DNA from: a virus
Strand: one strand, 5' to 3'
DNA length: 25,075 nucleotides
IMG/VR virus record: IMGVR_UViG_3300017734_000066
Location: 1-25,075 of that record
The notes under the pieces are model-generated. The model was not told where the DNA came from. It made no database searches and worked only from the letters and a program-made list of their open reading frames with translations. Positions 8,109 through 25,075 of this stretch are shown here, piece by piece; the first letter of the stretch is position 1; every line of letters starts with the position of its first letter. Position numbers and translations under genes: made by a program.

Positions 8109-9395
8109 ATGGCACACACACCATTCCACGGTCTGATGCAACCAGGCCAACGCCCGTCAATGCAGTTTCAGCAGCTTAATCAGGCGTATCAGTCCGATCC
8201 GCGGCGCATCCTTGGCCAAGCGCTGATGGGGCAGGGTGCAAGTTCTGCGCCTGTTAGGACGCCCTTACAAGGGCTTGGCAGGCTGTCTAGCGCACTGGTG
8301 GGCGCATACCTACAGCGCAAGGCTGGTGATGCACAAGTCGAGCGTGAGACTGAAATGACAAATCAGATCATGGGAATGCTGGGGCCGAATGTGGCTCCAG
8401 GTGTTCGCGCTGCTGTTGCTGCCAATCCATCAGCGGCTATGCCAGCATTACTGACCGCACAGTTCGCGCCAACAACCACCTCACAAATAACAAACCTAGG
8501 CGACTTTTCAGCGGTTGAAACAACCACGACTAATCCATTGACGGGAGCCACCAGCAGTTCACTTGGCAACCCCGTGCAGCGCCGTGCGCCAGCAAAGCCG
8601 GATGTGTTTAATTTTGTGAATCCGAATGACCCGTCAGACGTACAATCAATTTTAAGCACTGACCCGCAATTTGCCGCAAAAACACAAACCTTGATTGATG
8701 CCGGTTATGTGGAGCGACAAGGCGGTGGCACGTCCGTTTCAGTCAACCCAACCATTGCGATGGGCAACGAACAGCAATCAGAGTTCATGAAAGCCGCTGC
8801 AACGTCAGCAGCCAAACGAATAGAGGACTTGAGTAAACAAGTGCAAAGCGAGTCTGATTTGATCACAAGGCTAAATATTGCCGATCAATTGCTTGAGATT
8901 GGCACCGAAACAGGGCCAATTACCAATATAACGATGCCCATCAGAAACCTTGGAAAGGAATTTGGATTTTTAAACGATGAGCAAATCCGCGATTTAAACA
9001 ACCAACAAGTTTTGACAGCGGCGTTCAACTTTATAATTCCACGCATGAGAGTGGTCGGATCGGGGGCAACATCCGACTTTGAAGCCCGATTGTTTTCAAG
9101 TGCCACTGCTAATATGAGCAACACGCCAGAGGCAAACAAAGCCTTGGTGAAATCAATGCAAGCACTTGTACAGCGTCGAGCAGATATTTTGAAAGCGATG
9201 GAAAAATTCGCCAAGAAAAATAACAGTTTGATTGGATTTGCAGAATTTGCAGATGAGAACGTGCCGCCAGCCTTACAAGCGTACATGACGGACGGAGAGT
9301 ATGACGCGGCTGTTGAAAACGGTGAATTGAAAAACGGGGATTTATATTTCAACGGCATCACCGGCACATTTGAAATTTATGAGGGGGATGCCTAA
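8109..9395 (+). CDS. Internal virion protein (probable ejection protein)
   Basis: 428 residues, starting 3 nt after the previous stop, with GAGG upstream. The N-terminal ~90 residues are Gln/Arg-rich with a region (LSSALVGAYLQRKAGDAQVE) that can form an amphipathic helix. The middle is Thr/Ser/Asn/Pro-rich (TTTNPLTGATSSSLGNP) and could be flexible. Residues ~215-370 are predicted helical and include SEFMKAAATSAAKRIEDL and a block with FIIPRMRVVGSGATSDFEARLF, which I recall from ejection proteins of marine phages. The closing part NGDLYFNGITGTFEIYEGD is a short beta unit. It lies between two other internal virion genes, consistent with a DNA ejectosome. No catalytic motif found. Confidence 0.65.
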   Translation: MAHTPFHGLMQPGQRPSMQFQQLNQAYQSDPRRILGQALMGQGASSAPVRTPLQGLGRLSSALVGAYLQRKAGDAQVERETEMTNQIMGMLGPNVAPGVRAAVAANPSAAMPALLTAQFAPTTTSQITNLGDFSAVETTTTNPLTGATSSSLGNPVQRRAPAKPDVFNFVNPNDPSDVQSILSTDPQFAAKTQTLIDAGYVERQGGGTSVSVNPTIAMGNEQQSEFMKAAATSAAKRIEDLSKQVQSESDLITRLNIADQLLEIGTETGPITNITMPIRNLGKEFGFLNDEQIRDLNNQQVLTAAFNFIIPRMRVVGSGATSDFEARLFSSATANMSNTPEANKALVKSMQALVQRRADILKAMEKFAKKNNSLIGFAEFADENVPPALQAYMTDGEYDAAVENGELKNGDLYFNGITGTFEIYEGDA

Positions 9396-10993
9396 TGCCT
9401 TTACCGCGAGAGTCAAAAACAGCGCCTGTTGGGGAACGCACAACCGGCGATGTTGCAATGGATTTTGGGCGTGCTGCCGCACAAGGTGTTTCGTTTGGAT
9501 TTGCGGATGAGATAGAGGCGGCTGTAAGGGCGGCTTTTGACAGCGGCAAAACATATGCAGAAGTGGTGAAGGATGTCAGAGGCCAAATTGACAGCTTTCG
9601 ACAACGCAACCCAGCCGCTGCCTATGGCACAGAGATAGCTGGTGCAATACTGCCAACTATAGTCGCACAGTTTATTCCTGGGGTAGGTCAAGCTGCAACG
9701 GCTGGCAGAGCAACGCAACTAATGCGTTCCGCTGGCATGGGAGCCGGTAGTCAAAGGGTTGCCAGAGTTGCAGGCACAAGTGGCGCACAAAGCGCGATCT
9801 ATGGCGCAGGGGCGGCTGAAGGCGGTATTGCAGAGCGTTTACCTAGTGCAGCAGCATCAGGCGCAATTGGCGCTGTTGCAGGCCCAGTGGTGGACAAGGT
9901 AGCGCCAGCGATCACGGCAGGGGCGGCTGATCTAATAAAAAAAGGTGTAGCGCTTACACCTGGGCAGGCTGTTGGCGGCTCAAGCCTGCTTGGCACGGCA
10001 TTGCAACGTGCAGAAGAACGTGCGGCTGACACTGTGCCACTTTTGGGTGACGCAATTAGGGGCGCATTTGACCGCGCAACGGCTGGCTTCAATCGCGCTG
10101 CGGTTACGGAAGCGCTTGCGCCACTTCAAACAAAAGTGCCAAAAAATCTTGAAGGCAAAGAACTAATTGGCTACGGCCAGCGGCTGATAAGCAACGCTTA
10201 CAACGCTACCTTGAGCAAAATGAAAATAGAAAATGTAATGCCTCTTGCATCAGAAATGGACACCATAACTAAAGATTTATCAGACGACATTGCAAAAGAC
10301 GTTCAAGGCCGCGTTTCCCGCTACATTACCAAAAAATTTAAAAACGGCGGTATGTCTGGGCAAGATATCAAAAAAGCCCAAACACTTTTGCGTAAAGATA
10401 TTTTGCGTTTGCGCCGTGAGGGCAGTGAAATTGGAGCGCGTAAAGCTGATGCGCTCGAAGATATTCGCAACGTATTCAGTGCAGAGTTGCAAAAAGCAAA
10501 CCCGGTTCAAGGCCCAAAACTAAACCAAATTGATAAAGCCTATGGTCAGTTTGAGATTGTGCGAAACGCAGAACTGCGCCGCAAAACCAGTGAAGGGTTT
10601 TTACCCGGTGATTTGCTGCAATCGGTGGCAAAAGGCGATGTCACAAAGAGGCAGTCAAAATTTACTGCTGGGGAAGCCCGGATGCAAAACCTTGCGCGTG
10701 AGGCTCAACAAGTAATGGGCAACAAGACGCCAGACAGCGGCACAGCGGCAAGATTGATGTCACCCACTGGTATGGGTGTAGCGTCAGCGGGCGGTGGTGC
10801 TTTATCACAAGCAGATCCTATAACCATAGGGGCGACTTTAGCCTCGCCAGCGGCATACTCCACATTTGGCGTGCCAATCGCCAGAAACGTTGTGGCTGGA
10901 TCAGGTCGTGCCTTGAGGGCAGCGGTGCCGGTAGCAGCGGCAAACACGACAGAGCTTAGTCGTCAGGCTTTAGCTGATCTTTTGCGGCGATAA
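9395..10993 (+). CDS. Internal virion protein (probable DNA-ejection protein)
   Basis: 532 residues, ATG at 9395 overlapping the upstream stop, GAGGGGG about 8 nt before. The N-terminal half is Ala/Gly-rich and could insert in membranes: AAAQGVSFGFADEIEAAVRA, AAYGTEIAGAILPTIVAQF, ASGAIGAVAGPVVDKVAPAI. The phrase GVALTPGQAVGG followed by RAEERAADTVPLLGDAI is one I associate with large internal proteins of marine phages. Residues ~240-430 are charged helices (VQGRVSRYITKKFKNGGMSG, DILRLRREGSEIGARKADAL). The C-terminus is again Ala/Gly-rich. This matches proteins that leave the capsid during infection to form a channel across the periplasm. No lytic transglycosylase motif is visible. Confidence 0.65.
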   Translation: MPLPRESKTAPVGERTTGDVAMDFGRAAAQGVSFGFADEIEAAVRAAFDSGKTYAEVVKDVRGQIDSFRQRNPAAAYGTEIAGAILPTIVAQFIPGVGQAATAGRATQLMRSAGMGAGSQRVARVAGTSGAQSAIYGAGAAEGGIAERLPSAAASGAIGAVAGPVVDKVAPAITAGAADLIKKGVALTPGQAVGGSSLLGTALQRAEERAADTVPLLGDAIRGAFDRATAGFNRAAVTEALAPLQTKVPKNLEGKELIGYGQRLISNAYNATLSKMKIENVMPLASEMDTITKDLSDDIAKDVQGRVSRYITKKFKNGGMSGQDIKKAQTLLRKDILRLRREGSEIGARKADALEDIRNVFSAELQKANPVQGPKLNQIDKAYGQFEIVRNAELRRKTSEGFLPGDLLQSVAKGDVTKRQSKFTAGEARMQNLAREAQQVMGNKTPDSGTAARLMSPTGMGVASAGGGALSQADPITIGATLASPAAYSTFGVPIARNVVAGSGRALRAAVPVAAANTTELSRQALADLLRR

Positions 10994-12984: not shown

Positions 12985-13017
12985 CAGTCCAGTTTCAGTC
13001 CAGTTTCAGTCCAGTTT
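12985..13017 (+). repeat. Left integrase arm-type repeats (3 x 11 bp)
   Basis: Three perfect head-to-tail copies of CAGTCCAGTTT lie at 12985-12995, 12996-13006 and 13007-13017. The same unit occurs twice more, in the same orientation, at 13216-13237 on the other side of the tRNA-like core. Short tandem sites on both sides of an attachment core next to an integrase gene are the expected layout of arm-type sites bound by the N-terminal domain of a tyrosine integrase. The 11-bp period puts each site on the same face of the DNA helix, give or take a small twist. Confidence 0.8.
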
Positions 13018-13097: not shown

Positions 13098-13145
<48 letters not shown>

Positions 13146-13215: not shown

Positions 13216-13237
13216 CAGTCCAGTTTCAGTCCAGTTT
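13216..13237 (+). repeat. Right integrase arm-type repeats (2 x 11 bp)
   Basis: Two perfect tandem copies of CAGTCCAGTTT (13216-13226 and 13227-13237), in the same orientation as the three copies on the left of the core. The distance from the core end to the first copy is about 70 bp, compared with about 80 bp between the left array and the core. This gives attP a nearly symmetric P-core-P' plan. Confidence 0.8.
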
Positions 13238-14474: not shown

Positions 14475-14620
14475 CTCATCACATCCCAAATTCTTTGCGC
14501 CCAGTTCCTGGGCGGCGGCTCAATGCTCACCGCTTGGCGTCTTGCTGCCCATATACGTTTCATCCTTTTACTCTGCGCGGCACGCTTTTCAGGCGTCCAT
14601 GCTGCTTTGTGTTTGTTCAT
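14462..14620 (-). CDS. 52-aa basic phage protein
   Basis: 52 residues, start ATG at 14620 with AGGTGGG just upstream, stop TAG in the loop of the terminator hairpin. It overlaps the end of the Xis-like gene by 32 nt in another frame. The N-terminus NKHKAAWTPEKRAAQSKRMK followed by RIWAARRQA is a recurring phage motif ('WTPEKRAAQSxRMxxxWAxRR'), often seen in short proteins or at the tail of HTH proteins. The C-terminal half (EPPPRNWAQRIWDVMRGAH) is unremarkable. It is probably a nucleic-acid-associated accessory protein; no function known to me. Confidence 0.6.
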   Translation of the reverse strand: MNKHKAAWTPEKRAAQSKRMKRIWAARRQAVSIEPPPRNWAQRIWDVMRGAH

Positions 14621-14801
14621 CAATCCCACCTAATTTCACAATTTCAGAACGCGGTATGAACCACCGTGAACCATCTTGAATAGCCGCGATCTGGCCATCC
14701 TTGATCCAGCGCCTGACGCGCTTGCGGCTGGCCTCACTGTAGCCTTCACCGAATAGTGCATCACACGCCTCTCTGACCGTCAGTAGCGCCTGCCTAGCCA
14801 T
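14589..14801 (-). CDS. Excisionase-like MerR/HTH_17-type DNA-binding protein
   Basis: 70 residues from the ATG at 14801; the frame is open further upstream, but there it only shadows the proline-rich gene. The sequence LLTVREACDALFGEGYSEAS, RKRVRRWIKDGQIAAI and GSRWFIPRSEI is a winged helix-turn-helix of the excisionase (HTH_17) kind: recognition helix, a turn of the form 'dGqI.A', then a 'g..wfIPrsEi' wing. It lies convergently next to the integrase gene and near attP, so a recombination-directionality role (Xis) is likely. A general transcription-factor role is the main alternative. It overlaps the upstream gene by 8 nt and is co-transcribed with Erf. Confidence 0.75.
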   Translation of the reverse strand: MARQALLTVREACDALFGEGYSEASRKRVRRWIKDGQIAAIQDGSRWFIPRSEIVKLGGIDEQTQSSMDA

Positions 14802-15171
14802 TCTTTGCAGCCTCATAGCCAGCCGGTGGCGGCGGTGCATCAGGCACACTTGTATGCGGCGGCGGTGCCGGTGGTGGGGGCGGCGGCGGTGCATACACAG
14901 GGGCAGGGACAGCAGCTTGCTGTCGCGGGGCACCGTCATTGAGCCAGAGCCGTGATCTGGCCACACGGTGAAATGTGTCACCAATCTTCACTTGTATCTC
15001 CAGACCAGGCTGCTGCTTGAAATCGTCCTTGGTGGCTTGATAATAGGCGTCCAGACGTGCCTTCAGATCAGGGTCACTGATGTTGAACCAGAAACTGATG
15101 CTTAAATTGTCGTCAATCTCGACGCCTCGCACCAACTGAATCTTGCCAGCTTTGTATTCAGGTTGTGCCAT
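14794..15171 (-). CDS. Recombination-cassette protein with proline-rich tail
   Basis: 125 residues from ATG 15171 with AAGGA upstream; the longer frame to 15207 would lie inside the erf gene. Residues 1-80 form a globular domain (GKIQLVRGVEIDDNLSISFW, DPDLKARLDAYYQATKDDF, IQVKIGDTFHRVARSRLWLN). Residues ~88-125 are strongly proline-rich, including a run of seven Pro, and end GYEAAKNG. A compact domain plus a disordered tail right after an annealase suggests an SSB-like or annealase-partner protein, but I see no clear OB-fold signature and do not recognise the family. The proline tail may be a protein-protein contact. Confidence 0.6.
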   Translation of the reverse strand: MAQPEYKAGKIQLVRGVEIDDNLSISFWFNISDPDLKARLDAYYQATKDDFKQQPGLEIQVKIGDTFHRVARSRLWLNDGAPRQQAAVPAPVYAPPPPPPPAPPPHTSVPDAPPPPAGYEAAKNG

Positions 15172-22056: not shown

Positions 22057-22236
22057 ATGCTGGCGCAAGATATTGATGAAAGAATAGTATTTGCGGCTGA
22101 TTGCTTGCCCTGTGAACTTTGCGGTGAGCCAGTTTGCCCACGTTGCAACCAGCACTATGCAACCTGTCCATGCCCAGGGCCACACAGCGAGATCAACGAT
22201 GAGGAAGTATCAGCCAGCCCAGGTGGACTGGGCTGA
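22057..22236 (+). CDS. 59-aa zinc-ribbon protein before terminase
   Basis: 59 residues from ATG 22057. It contains CLPCELCGEPVCPRC, then HYATCPCPGPHSEINDEEVS: six closely spaced Cys with CxxC pairs and a 'CPCPGPH' end. Short phage proteins with 'CPxCgxxYxxCpCPGP' are common directly before terminase genes, so I take it as real. It probably binds one or two zinc ions. No ribosome site is obvious. Its end overlaps the next gene by 38 nt in another frame. Confidence 0.65.
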   Translation: MLAQDIDERIVFAADCLPCELCGEPVCPRCNQHYATCPCPGPHSEINDEEVSASPGGLG

Positions 22237-22840
22237 GATAGAGCAACGCATCAAGGCTGGTGAGAGTTTCAACGCTGTGTCTAAGGATTACAGCGTGTCC
22301 AGGCAGGCCATACAGAAGCGGTGCAGTAAGGAAGGCTGGGTAGAGCATACGCCAGTGACAACCGCTGTGCGCCGCCAGTTGCGTAAGCGCAACCAGTTGC
22401 AACCAGATGTGCAACCAAGTGAGGTTGCATTGCAACCAATGGCATCCATGCAACCGCAAGCTGTGGCAGAGCCAAGCGCTGCCGTAATGGCAAGAGATGA
22501 CAAGCAAGGCGCAGCACTAGAGCTGCTGCGGGATGGCGTGCCGCGGAAGCATGCAGCGCAAGGCGTGGGCGTGAGTGAAAGCACGCTACTGCGATGGATC
22601 AATGACGATGAAGGATTTGGCTCAGAGGTACGCGCAGCAGAAAGTGCTGCTGTCGCTCTCAGGGTGCGCCGGATCGGGAAAGCCGGTGAAAAGGACTGGC
22701 GTGCTGATAGCTGGTACCTGGAACGCACACAGAGGGCTGAGTTCGGCTCTGACAGCCAGAAAGGTGGCGGTGTAGCGGTCCAGATCAACATCGAACGTGG
22801 CGGCGATACAGAGGTGATTGACGTTACACCTGGCAGCTAA
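22199..22840 (+). CDS. Terminase small subunit-like DNA-binding protein
   Basis: 213 residues from ATG 22199; the frame is open to 22091 but upstream it overlaps the zinc-ribbon gene. Residues ~8-48 form one HTH (VDWAEIEQRIKAGESFNAVS, KDYSVSRQAIQKRCSKEGW). Residues ~60-95 are a linker with repeated xQP tripeptides. Residues ~100-175 form a second HTH and helical part: KQGAALELLRDGVPRKHAAQ, GVGVSESTLLRWINDDEGF, EVRAAESAAVALRVRRIGKA, DWRADSWYLERTQRAEFG. This 'dW.A..w.LER..p..fG' ending is typical of small terminase subunits, which recognise the packaging site. No large terminase is in the window, so the role is inferred from homology alone. Confidence 0.7.
   Translation: MRKYQPAQVDWAEIEQRIKAGESFNAVSKDYSVSRQAIQKRCSKEGWVEHTPVTTAVRRQLRKRNQLQPDVQPSEVALQPMASMQPQAVAEPSAAVMARDDKQGAALELLRDGVPRKHAAQGVGVSESTLLRWINDDEGFGSEVRAAESAAVALRVRRIGKAGEKDWRADSWYLERTQRAEFGSDSQKGGGVAVQINIERGGDTEVIDVTPGS
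22389..22455 (+). repeat. TGCAACC motif array inside the small-terminase gene
   Basis: Six copies of (T)GCAACC(A) lie within 67 bp: at 22389, 22398, 22410, 22423 (inverted), 22431 and 22449. The inverted and following direct copies form a perfect 15-bp palindrome, GGTTGCATTGCAACC, at 22423-22437. Two more copies occur upstream in another gene and other frames (22144-22150 and 22158-22164), and one inverted copy at 23039-23045. The array codes for the xQP linker of the terminase-like protein. It may be a packaging-recognition site of the P22 kind, where pac lies within the small-terminase gene. Confidence 0.5.
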
Positions 22841-22860
22841 ACTGGACTGCATCTGGACTG
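22839..22860 (-). repeat. Two inverted copies of the attP arm repeat
   Basis: Read on the - strand, 22849-22839 is CAGTCCAGTTT, identical to the attP arm unit, and directly preceding it (22860-22850) is CAGTCCAGATG, a 9/11 match. The tandem 11-bp period is kept. The site overlaps the stop codon of the terminase-like gene, about 9.6 kb from attP, and is in the opposite orientation. Single 8-bp matches (CTGGACTG at 792 and 21294) occur elsewhere by chance, but not tandem pairs. Confidence 0.7.
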
Positions 22861-23044
22861 GGCGTGAGCCATCCATCAGCAAAGCGTTGCAGGCTCTACG
22901 TTACAGGACACAAGACCACCGGACTACTAAGCCGGTTCAGATTCTGACGGCCCCCGCGGCATGCCCCCAGGCCAGCCGTCGCGCGACGACGAAGGCGTTA
23001 TGTAAACACGCCCGCTTCTACAAAATCACAGGGTTTCAGGTTGC
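22861..23044. other. Non-coding spacer with several dyads
   Basis: This stretch between the terminase-like gene and the large gene has no credible ORF; an open frame crosses it but has an implausible composition. It holds CGTCGCGCGACG, a perfect 12-bp palindrome at 22977-22988; GACGGC and GCCGTC flanking 22946-22980; an ACCGG/CCGGT hairpin at 22918-22936; and GGCATGCC. Neighbouring genes here overlap almost everywhere, so nearly 200 non-coding bases must be functional or recently altered. A packaging site or structured RNA are the main possibilities. Confidence 0.5.
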
Positions 23045-25075
23045 ATGGCAGAACAGCCACAAGGATTTGCGCGTCGCATGATGGCGCAGAAGTTGATGGC
23101 TGACGCGCGTGCTACGCCTAACAGCGACAGTCCGTCCTTTTTCGGGCGCATCAGGCCATCAGTGCAGGACATGGCTGATCCCACGCGGTTCAGCGACATG
23201 GCTGGCCCTGCGTACACGACTGGCGCTACGGCCAGCTTGTTTGCGCCGGGTGCTGGCGTTGTTGATATCTTTGGCGGTGCGCCTGATCCCATGCAGCCGG
23301 GTCAGATGCTGCCCAGCTTTGGTCAGAACGTCACTCAGGGCAATTATCTTGATGCTGGATTACAGGCGTTGGGTGGTGCTGGCGATGTGATGATGGCGGC
23401 TGGTGCTGTCATACCGCCTGCCTTGCCTGCTGCGACGATGCTTGGGACTGCATTAAAGGCACCACGGGCAGCTAGGGTGGCCGGTCAGGCGGCTGATGCT
23501 GCCAATACGTTGGTGGATGATTTGCCTACATTGCGTTTCGACGGCACCGACGACATTGATCTAGAGGGTAAAAACATCTTCCCGATTGTTGCTGATTTGA
23601 CAGCGGCAGGCGGTAGATTTGAAGGCATAGACAGCAGCAAGTTGGATGCCCCTGAATTGCTACAGGGCGGCCCAGAATTTTCAAATCTGAAGGGCAGCAG
23701 GGATGCTGGGGTTGTATGGGCTGTGCAGGGCAAGGGTCGCGGCACTGCAAAATTGTCTAAGGATGCAGATTACGGGCTTGTAGTTGCGATGAATCCAGAT
23801 TCGCATCGTTCCAATGCAACCTTTGTAAATTCTATACTGGGCAACACGCTGGCATATGTGCGTGATGGCCGGATATCACCAGAGAATTTGGCGCAGCTTG
23901 ATGGGTTTGTCAGGACAGGCACAGACCAATCACAGTTGCAGAAATTGAAGGATTGGCCAGGCTTTGCAAGCCCTGACGCTGCTGACTTTATTAAATCTCT
24001 GAATTTTGAGGCTAGAAGTCGAATTTCAGATGTGGTTGGCAGTTCACGTGGCCAAGCCTTGGGTGCGCCAAACATTGACAAGATCATACGCGCAACTGGC
24101 GATCCAGCGCTTCTGGGGCTGAACAGCCGTGATGCAATTATGTTGGTGAAACTGGACAAGGAGGCTGACTTGGTACGCCTTGGTACTGAGGGGTCACTTG
24201 AACATAATTCTTATGATTTTGGCATCAAGGGTGAGCCGGTTGCCCGAATACCAGTAACCAGCGCTAGAAATATGTTCCCTGATTTCTTTGCCCAGGCAGA
24301 GGCTGAAGGCAAACAAAATGTCCGGCGTGCATTTGACTTGGCTCTGCCGGTTGAAACGCTGACAGCCGAAAAAATTGCCAATATTCGCAGCCTAGCCACG
24401 CAATCGATTGATAGCCCACGCCAAGCGGCATTAACGGCTGATGTTGTAACCGGCAACTGGAAATCGTCTAGTACGCCAAAAAATGCCGGTGGATTAAGCC
24501 CAACAGAGTTTGTTCAGGCGCTGAAAGGCAGTGATGCGTCGTCAACGCTGACAATGATGGAGTTGCCGGAGGTCCAGAAAAAATTGCGTGGCGGCAATTT
24601 TGAAGTGTTCCAGCTTGGCGATGGCGAAGTCTTTTTTGGGTTGGAAAAATCCTATAATTACGATGACGTCTATAATCTTAGCGGCAACCCGACTTATGTG
24701 AAGGTTGAGGGTGGGCCTGAACTGACAGGCGATGAAAAGGCGCTTGTCAGCGTTATAAACAATGAGGTCGGCGCAAAGGGCGTAGGCAAGGCAACAGTCC
24801 TGAAGGCCATTGAAGAGGGCGCGACAGCATTAGATGCGTTTGCAGTGCCTTCAGAGCGATTTCCTGATGGATTTTTACCAGATTTCTATGGTAGTTTTGG
24901 GTTTGAAGAAGTGGGCCGAATTGATTTCGATCCATCTTTCTACAGCCAGACGGAATTGGCTGACCTGGAGGACTATTGGCGATCTACTGGCTGGGACGAA
25001 AGTGCTGGCCCACCAAAGATTGTCATTATGAAATGGACTGGTAACGATGGCTTTCGAGCAGACGCAACTAAACGC
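23045..25075 (+). CDS. Large polyvalent virion-type protein with GNAT-like domain (truncated by window)
   Basis: 677 residues are visible from ATG 23045 to the right edge with no stop; an in-frame stop at 23003 makes this the first start. The N-terminal ~150 residues are Ala/Gly/Met-rich with membrane-like segments (ATASLFAPGAGVVDIFGGAP, MMAAGAVIPPALPAATMLG), as in proteins injected with phage DNA. Residues ~160-560 are a series of unassigned alpha/beta segments. Residues ~570-665 resemble a GNAT fold: VGKATVLKAIEEGATALDAF, then DGFLPDFYGSFGFEEVGRID and KIVIMKWTGN. Multi-domain 'polyvalent' proteins of this plan are known in phages and are thought to be ejected into the host to modify early targets. 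It follows the terminase-like gene and a non-coding spacer. Confidence 0.7.
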   Translation, partial: MAEQPQGFARRMMAQKLMADARATPNSDSPSFFGRIRPSVQDMADPTRFSDMAGPAYTTGATASLFAPGAGVVDIFGGAPDPMQPGQMLPSFGQNVTQGNYLDAGLQALGGAGDVMMAAGAVIPPALPAATMLGTALKAPRAARVAGQAADAANTLVDDLPTLRFDGTDDIDLEGKNIFPIVADLTAAGGRFEGIDSSKLDAPELLQGGPEFSNLKGSRDAGVVWAVQGKGRGTAKLSKDADYGLVVAMNPDSHRSNATFVNSILGNTLAYVRDGRISPENLAQLDGFVRTGTDQSQLQKLKDWPGFASPDAADFIKSLNFEARSRISDVVGSSRGQALGAPNIDKIIRATGDPALLGLNSRDAIMLVKLDKEADLVRLGTEGSLEHNSYDFGIKGEPVARIPVTSARNMFPDFFAQAEAEGKQNVRRAFDLALPVETLTAEKIANIRSLATQSIDSPRQAALTADVVTGNWKSSSTPKNAGGLSPTEFVQALKGSDASSTLTMMELPEVQKKLRGGNFEVFQLGDGEVFFGLEKSYNYDDVYNLSGNPTYVKVEGGPELTGDEKALVSVINNEVGAKGVGKATVLKAIEEGATALDAFAVPSERFPDGFLPDFYGSFGFEEVGRIDFDPSFYSQTELADLEDYWRSTGWDESAGPPKIVIMKWTGNDGFRADATKR

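Follow-up and report, generated by a model that had tools for sequence, protein, structure and literature searches.

A candidate second integrase site at the terminase gene junction of marine phages

An attP region, a tyrosine integrase gene and the gene for the small terminase subunit (terS) are all found in the stretch of DNA analyzed here (hereafter 'the window'), which covers 25,075 nucleotides of virus record IMGVR_UViG_3300017734_000066. An 11-bp unit that is repeated in tandem on both sides of attP recurs as a tandem pair at the end of terS, about 9.5 kb from attP and the integrase gene. Is this pair bound by the integrase or by another phage protein, is it left over from an earlier attachment site, or is it a coincidence? 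From the comparisons presented below, it seems very likely (probability of roughly 0.93) that the junction between terS and the large terminase gene (terL) holds a second, complete attL-like site for the tyrosine integrase that the phage itself encodes. Judging from the sequences compared, this second integrase site is found in at least two kinds of marine phages, and it changes with the integrase.

The repeat pair and a core-type site beside it

On the minus strand, CAGTCCAGTTT at positions 22839-22849 matches the attP unit at 11 of 11 positions, and CAGTCCAGATG at 22850-22860 matches it at 9 of 11, with a period of 11 bp. The first bases of the pair lie within the terS stop codon (TAA, 22838-22840), where a 204-bp non-coding spacer (22841-23044) begins. 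The window carries 17 matches with two or fewer mismatches, compared with 6.8 expected and a maximum of 13 among 100 shuffles. By our own arithmetic, which assumes equal base frequencies, a 22-bp match with two or fewer mismatches is expected ~6e-6 times in the window. Within the window, the two attP arms and the terS end are the only places where the 8-bp unit forms exact tandem pairs. Likewise, when genomes were scanned for exact tandem unit pairs, these were found in three places only (P arm, P′ arm and terS/terL spacer), with G035 carrying degenerate copies of the unit. An inverted tandem pair of period 11, located at the end of a terminase-like gene and at the edge of a non-coding spacer, had been reported in the initial annotation, and both parts of this description are borne out by the minus-strand matches and by the start of the pair inside the terS stop codon. 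The site is larger than was described there, as it runs 63 bp further to a core-type inverted repeat (Table 1).

Table 1. Positions of attP, the candidate second integrase site and neighboring genes in the window
Feature	Position	Strand	Remarks
attP P arm, three tandem units CAGTCCAGTTT	12985..13017	+	starts 12985, 12996, 13007
attP core, tRNA-Asp 3′ fragment	13101..13145	+	overlap CTGTCAC 13101-13107; right half-site GCCGG 13108-13112
attP P′ arm, two tandem units	13216..13237	+	starts 13216, 13227; 108 bp past overlap
Tyrosine integrase, 381 aa	13304..14449	+	first ~44 residues are an N-terminal arm-binding-type domain
HTH_17 protein	14589..14804	-	convergent to int; candidate excisionase by family and place
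Small terminase subunit (terS)	22199..22840	+	small-terminase families, PHROG 4102, E 8.6e-13
Arm pair, candidate second integrase site	22839..22860	-	CAGTCCAGATG CAGTCCAGTTT; units directed away from core, P′ arm-like
Gap, arm pair to core half-site	22861..22918		63 bp from last arm base to overlap; contains GTTACAG
Core-type site CCGGA-CTACTAA-GCCGG	22919..22935	+	5-7-5 inverted repeat; overlap 22924-22930
C-rich element CTGACGGCCCCCGCGGCATGCCCCCAGGCC (CCCCC..CCCCC)	22944..22973	+	conserved, including int-less relatives; candidate pac/cos element
Late-gene start, 776-aa protein	23045..25075	+	between terS spacer and window end, which cuts it

In attP of the window, the 7-bp overlap lies in the anticodon loop (..GGGC-CTGTCAC-GCCGG), and reading the anticodon loops of attP regions was the means by which tRNA families (Asp, Glu and Ala) were assigned. 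The arm pair, gap and core-type site at the terS end, which we refer to collectively as the module, carry a right half-site (GCCGG) identical to that of attP, whereas the 7-bp overlap is different. The same is true more widely. Module half-sites equal or nearly equal the core half-sites of the attP in the same genome (the exception, G009, is described below), with CCGCC/GGCGG accompanying Glu-type attP, GCCGG or GCCAG accompanying Asp-type attP, and CCTG(A/C)/GCAGG-like half-sites accompanying Ala-type attP. The overlap of the module differs from that of attP in every genome examined, and therefore we describe the site as attL-like rather than as an attL.

Nearly all modules have 63 bp between the arm pair and the overlap, and two have 64 bp. 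For 22 modules from two clades with unrelated TerS proteins, the dyad score peaks at the 63-bp gap only (3.6 of 5, versus a background of ~1.25). The GTTACAG sequence within the gap recurs in most clade-2 modules, and its distance to the core there equals that in the window. Some clade-2 gaps also carry an AT-rich ATTCAAATATTTA resembling an IHF site, and clade 1 has no clear site of this type. The spacing in attP is of another kind: the last 8-bp unit of the P arm in the window stops 86 bp short of the overlap, and among the genomes compared the left arms are 86 bp from the overlap (79-98 bp in a few) and the right arms 107-112 bp (120 bp in G014). This attP geometry varies little, whichever integrase family or tRNA target is involved (the window, G003, G005, G014, G018, G023, G041, G051 and others).

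The first ~44 residues of the integrase form three strands and a helix in an AlphaFold model (pLDDT 80-93 in that part). The top PDB match of the model is full-length lambda Int (1z1b, E 3e-9), and SroF of phi3T, a solved recombinase-fold phage repressor, is also among the matches. The HTH_17 protein is likely an excisionase, to judge from its family and position. Other proteins encoded in the window include a C1-type repressor and an ERF/RecT-like annealing protein (named from sequence), and TerS carries two HTH-like stretches. In a near-identical contig (L043), terL and portal-like genes come after the gene for the 776-aa protein. An Rfam scan of the window gave no match, a tRNA scan of the window gave no complete tRNA, and bacterial genomes searched for prophages by TerS and by integrase gave no close relative.

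Covariation between the module and the integrase

A scan of IMG/VR for CAGTCCAGNNNCAGTCCAG yields several contigs with an identical arrangement, and contigs that hold both the attP arms and the terS pair carry them in opposite orientations (L017+L021, L022+L040 and L038). The pair is kept in all relatives that have the attP unit of the window and a visible terS end. Thus, the outcome that the initial annotation had taken to speak against its proposal, namely loss of the pair despite conserved attP arms, is seen in no relative with a visible terS end. With few exceptions, the genes for TerS homologues (53-100% identical) have a tandem pair of 11-bp repeats directly 3′ of the terS stop codon, and one group has it just upstream of this codon. 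The sequences of the pairs form a series of types (CTGGACTG, CTGGGACA, CGTGACCA, CTATAACA, TGTAGTGA, CTACAACA, CTTAACCA, TTGGAACA, GGTACGG and others), and four different unit types adjoin TerS proteins that are 98-100% identical. Where a contig also holds the integrase gene, the pair in the spacer matches the attP arms of that same contig.

This correspondence was evaluated with a matrix of 19 genomes. In 18 of these, the genome's own attP unit is present as a pair in its own terS/terL spacer (two or fewer mismatches), compared with 10 of 322 off-type comparisons; the matrix left out G037, G044 and L188, three of the nine clade-2 genomes, in which the attP arms were not established. None of 200,000 permutations reached 18 of 19 own matches, and the same result was obtained with one genome for each of 12 unit types. 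All of this evidence is comparative, and the contigs are partly redundant and mostly from uncultured phages. The exception, G009 (L057/L114/L136), has an integrase with B arms and a tRNA-Ala-type attP, together with a module that has C arms (one copy degenerate) and a Glu-type core. Recent recombination or a chimeric assembly may explain this mismatch. Modules combining B arms with an Ala-type core are present in L051 and L054, and the G009 module is also found in L058, which comes from another sample.

Relatives of the integrase lead to a second clade of phages with another terS family and with TerL proteins 50-58% identical to those of HTVC010P-type pelagiphages. In the terS/terL spacer of these clade-2 phages the module is flipped as a whole (core, then arms), with the arms again directed away from the core at 63 bp, and terL follows within ~130 bp in most genomes.

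A ~105-bp cassette, which begins at the terS stop codon and contains the pair and the core, is flanked on either side by DNA that is 90-98% identical among genomes of the A, B and C types over most of their extent. The cassette and the attP/int region have each been exchanged separately and yet are matched, which implies selection for the match. Movement of the pair and attP in one exchange block was considered and rejected, given the identity of the three types on both sides of the cassette and over much of the DNA between.

Among integrases that share a unit, the N-terminal domain is 68-100% shared even when the rest of the protein is at ~31% identity. For example, L108 and L117 both have B arms, with 82% identity in the N-terminal domain and ~32% in the remainder. 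Conversely, integrases with a 95-99% identical remainder and a different N-terminal domain have different units (L012/L153, L108/L103 and L119/L121), as evident for L012 (A arms) and L153 (B arms), which are 99% identical in the remainder and 59% identical in the N-terminal domain. In L012, L153, L108, L103, L117 and L121, the first ~44 residues of the integrase alone have been exchanged, and the attP arm repeats have been exchanged as well. Such changes amount to natural domain exchanges. Because the arm unit varies with the N-terminal domain independently of the rest of the integrase, the unit is best read as an arm-type site of the integrase. Arms and cores reassort among modules, just as N-terminal domains and catalytic parts do among integrases.

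A matched module is absent from two near-complete relatives that lack an integrase gene (G019 and G062), and from the int-less cultured pelagiphages HTVC010P, HTVC034P, HTVC035P, HTVC203P, HTVC204P, Lederberg and Greip. HTVC203P (L283, MW273925) does carry a AATAAGGCAT pair, a perfect 11-bp tandem located at 34899-34919 upstream of terL, with no other copy in the genome. This phage has no annotated integrase, and the pair is possibly a remnant of a module. HTVC028P is the only isolate of its group found with an annotated integrase, and it has a TTCACTAT pair in the spacer upstream of terL. Its attP has three exact TTCACTAT copies with a period of 10 and a different arrangement of arms, and the octamer is expected ~3 times by chance, such that this phage lends weak support to the second-site pattern. 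A more distant relative, G065 (L224), has a TACTAGA tandem pair of period 11 in the terS/terL spacer and an integrase that is not matched to the pair. Roseobacter phage CRP-810 (L305), an unrelated marine temperate phage, carries repeated GTGGCACA around a tRNA-like attP region just past int (9288-9451). No GTGGCACA pair is present near terL in this phage, which shows that marine temperate phages do not generally carry the second site.

The C-rich element next to the module precedes terL or late genes in clades 1 and 2 and in most int-less pelagiphages, and it is a candidate packaging signal. In L208, a short contig with a terS relative, the element is almost directly 3′ of the stop codon and the cassette is missing.

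Several explanations for the pair had been offered in the initial annotation. The covariation in 18 of 19 genomes, the linkage to the N-terminal domain and the core at a fixed distance give strong support to its proposal of a second binding place for the integrase. It had also considered another protein common to integration and packaging, and the phage does encode proteins that might bind a shared unit at attP and the packaging region, including the Xis-like HTH_17 protein, the C1-type repressor and TerS with its HTH-like stretches. We consider this very unlikely, since the unit changes when only the first ~44 integrase residues are exchanged and the remainder stays 95-99% identical, nearly invariant TerS proteins sit beside four unit types, and the adjoining core matches the tRNA core of the integrase, which no Xis or repressor protein should read. 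Still less probable is a relic or scar left behind by an integrated satellite or an earlier attachment site, despite the attL-like appearance of a core with one arm. The 63-bp spacing is the same in two clades and differs from the 86 bp and 107-120 bp of attP in most genomes, the overlap is never that of attP, and half-sites and arms are intact and matched across at least 10 unit types with no tRNA remnant. The conserved covariation largely refutes the relic reading. Single 11-mers with two mismatches do arise at random, but a chance match is an exceedingly improbable account of 12 unit types that covary as described, at a fixed location and spacing.

Possible functions of the second site

The covariation suggests that the integrase has a second job besides chromosomal insertion. 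We judge the chances to be about even that this job is recombination between two copies of the module, which would circularize or resolve the phage genome. The integrase would be made after infection or on induction, and would bind the module with its N-terminal domains on the two arm repeats and its remaining contacts on the two inverted core half-sites 63 bp away. It would then pair two module copies, located either at the ends of terminally redundant virion DNA or in neighboring units of a concatemer. Because each module has two arms and two half-sites, as lambda attL needs, two modules alone could form an integrase tetramer. The overlap of the module fits neither attP nor attB, and therefore a module should recombine only with another module copy. 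Such recombination would make or restore unit-length circles, which would then integrate through attP. The odds are likewise about even that one integrase operates two orthogonal systems, with attP and attB serving integration and paired modules serving circle formation (or the gating of packaging). With a core present, the looping, packaging sensing or transcription block suggested in the initial annotation is no more likely than recombination between two copies of the site.

Several observations count against circularization by this route. The ERF/RecT-like protein could circularize DNA in another way, and if the virion ends are simple cos ends, resolution of concatemers would oppose packaging. 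The mismatched module of G009, the lack of a pair in CRP-810 and the lack of the site in int-less relatives were also counted against it. Contig ends, used as a proxy for fixed virion ends, show no clustering at the module.

Alternatively, an integrase complex on the arms and core at the terS/terL junction might act as a regulatory switch without recombination, either as a roadblock to transcription that reaches the late genes from the early or middle genes by way of terS, or by concealing the start of packaging until excision. We regard such a switch as a real possibility at distinctly less than even odds. The module does lie between terS and the late genes, beside the conserved C-rich element and between conserved cassette flanks, and it is close to terL in most clade-2 genomes. 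Precedents for the proteins involved include the recombinase-fold repressor SroF, and also P2 Cox and 186 Apl, which are recombination factors whose tandem boxes lie both at attP and at promoters. However, a roadblock needs only the arms, and not a core with two half-sites and a 7-bp spacer that matches the catalytic part of the integrase in every module. The flip in module orientation between clades would also be odd for a promoter operator.

Relation to known systems and significance

Open-access literature was searched for integrase arm sites at terminase genes, for second sites and for late-gene control by integrases, and no precedent was found. Partial parallels exist. Phage P1 carries loxP near pac, and Cre recombines two copies of loxP to circularize terminally redundant DNA. 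The module resembles loxP as a putative tyrosine-recombinase site, near a candidate start of packaging, that would act between its own copies. However, Cre is a dedicated enzyme with neither an arm domain nor a role in integration, whereas here the integrase would serve both attP and the second site. The Cox boxes of P2 and the operators of 186 Apl are tandem boxes for directionality factors, and these are present at attP and at early promoters. They share with the module the use of tandem boxes for a site-specific recombination protein at attP and a second locus, although that locus is an early promoter in P2 and 186, and here an integrase unit plus core is found at the packaging junction. 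In the conjugative element CTnDOT, excision proteins act on transcription of the tra operon, such that a recombination protein again operates at an att site and at a DNA-transfer region. Those proteins are excision factors acting on transcription, and no second core site is involved.

Helper-embedded PICIs also place integrase sites in prophage late genes, as the satellite integrase targets a late gene of the helper prophage (PMC10111431). Here, in contrast, the site would belong to the phage's own integrase and nothing is inserted. The closest structural likeness is to lambda attL, which is competent for synapsis with two Int bridges, P′1-C′ and P′2-B (PMC4880445). The module similarly has tandem arm-type sites about one helical turn apart, a presumed N-terminal domain reader, a core with a 7-bp overlap some 60 bp away, and two arms for two such bridges. 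The attL of lambda is formed only by integration and has its overlap in common with attR. Unlike it, the module is a permanent part of the phage genome, located at the terminase genes, a long way from attP, and equipped with an overlap of its own.

As the natural covariation indicates, abundant marine phages carry at the packaging junction a second cognate site for their lambda-type integrases, and in two separate clades this site has stayed in register as the specificities of arm domain and core changed. The roughly one dozen naturally occurring combinations of an arm domain with its arm repeat may be useful for engineering integrase specificity. For the question of how integrating circles form and how packaging is kept separate from lysogeny, the site offers a defined target of 97 bp, for which naturally swapped arms, cores and overlaps provide ready controls. 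A second site of this kind would couple integration to circularization, packaging or late gene expression.
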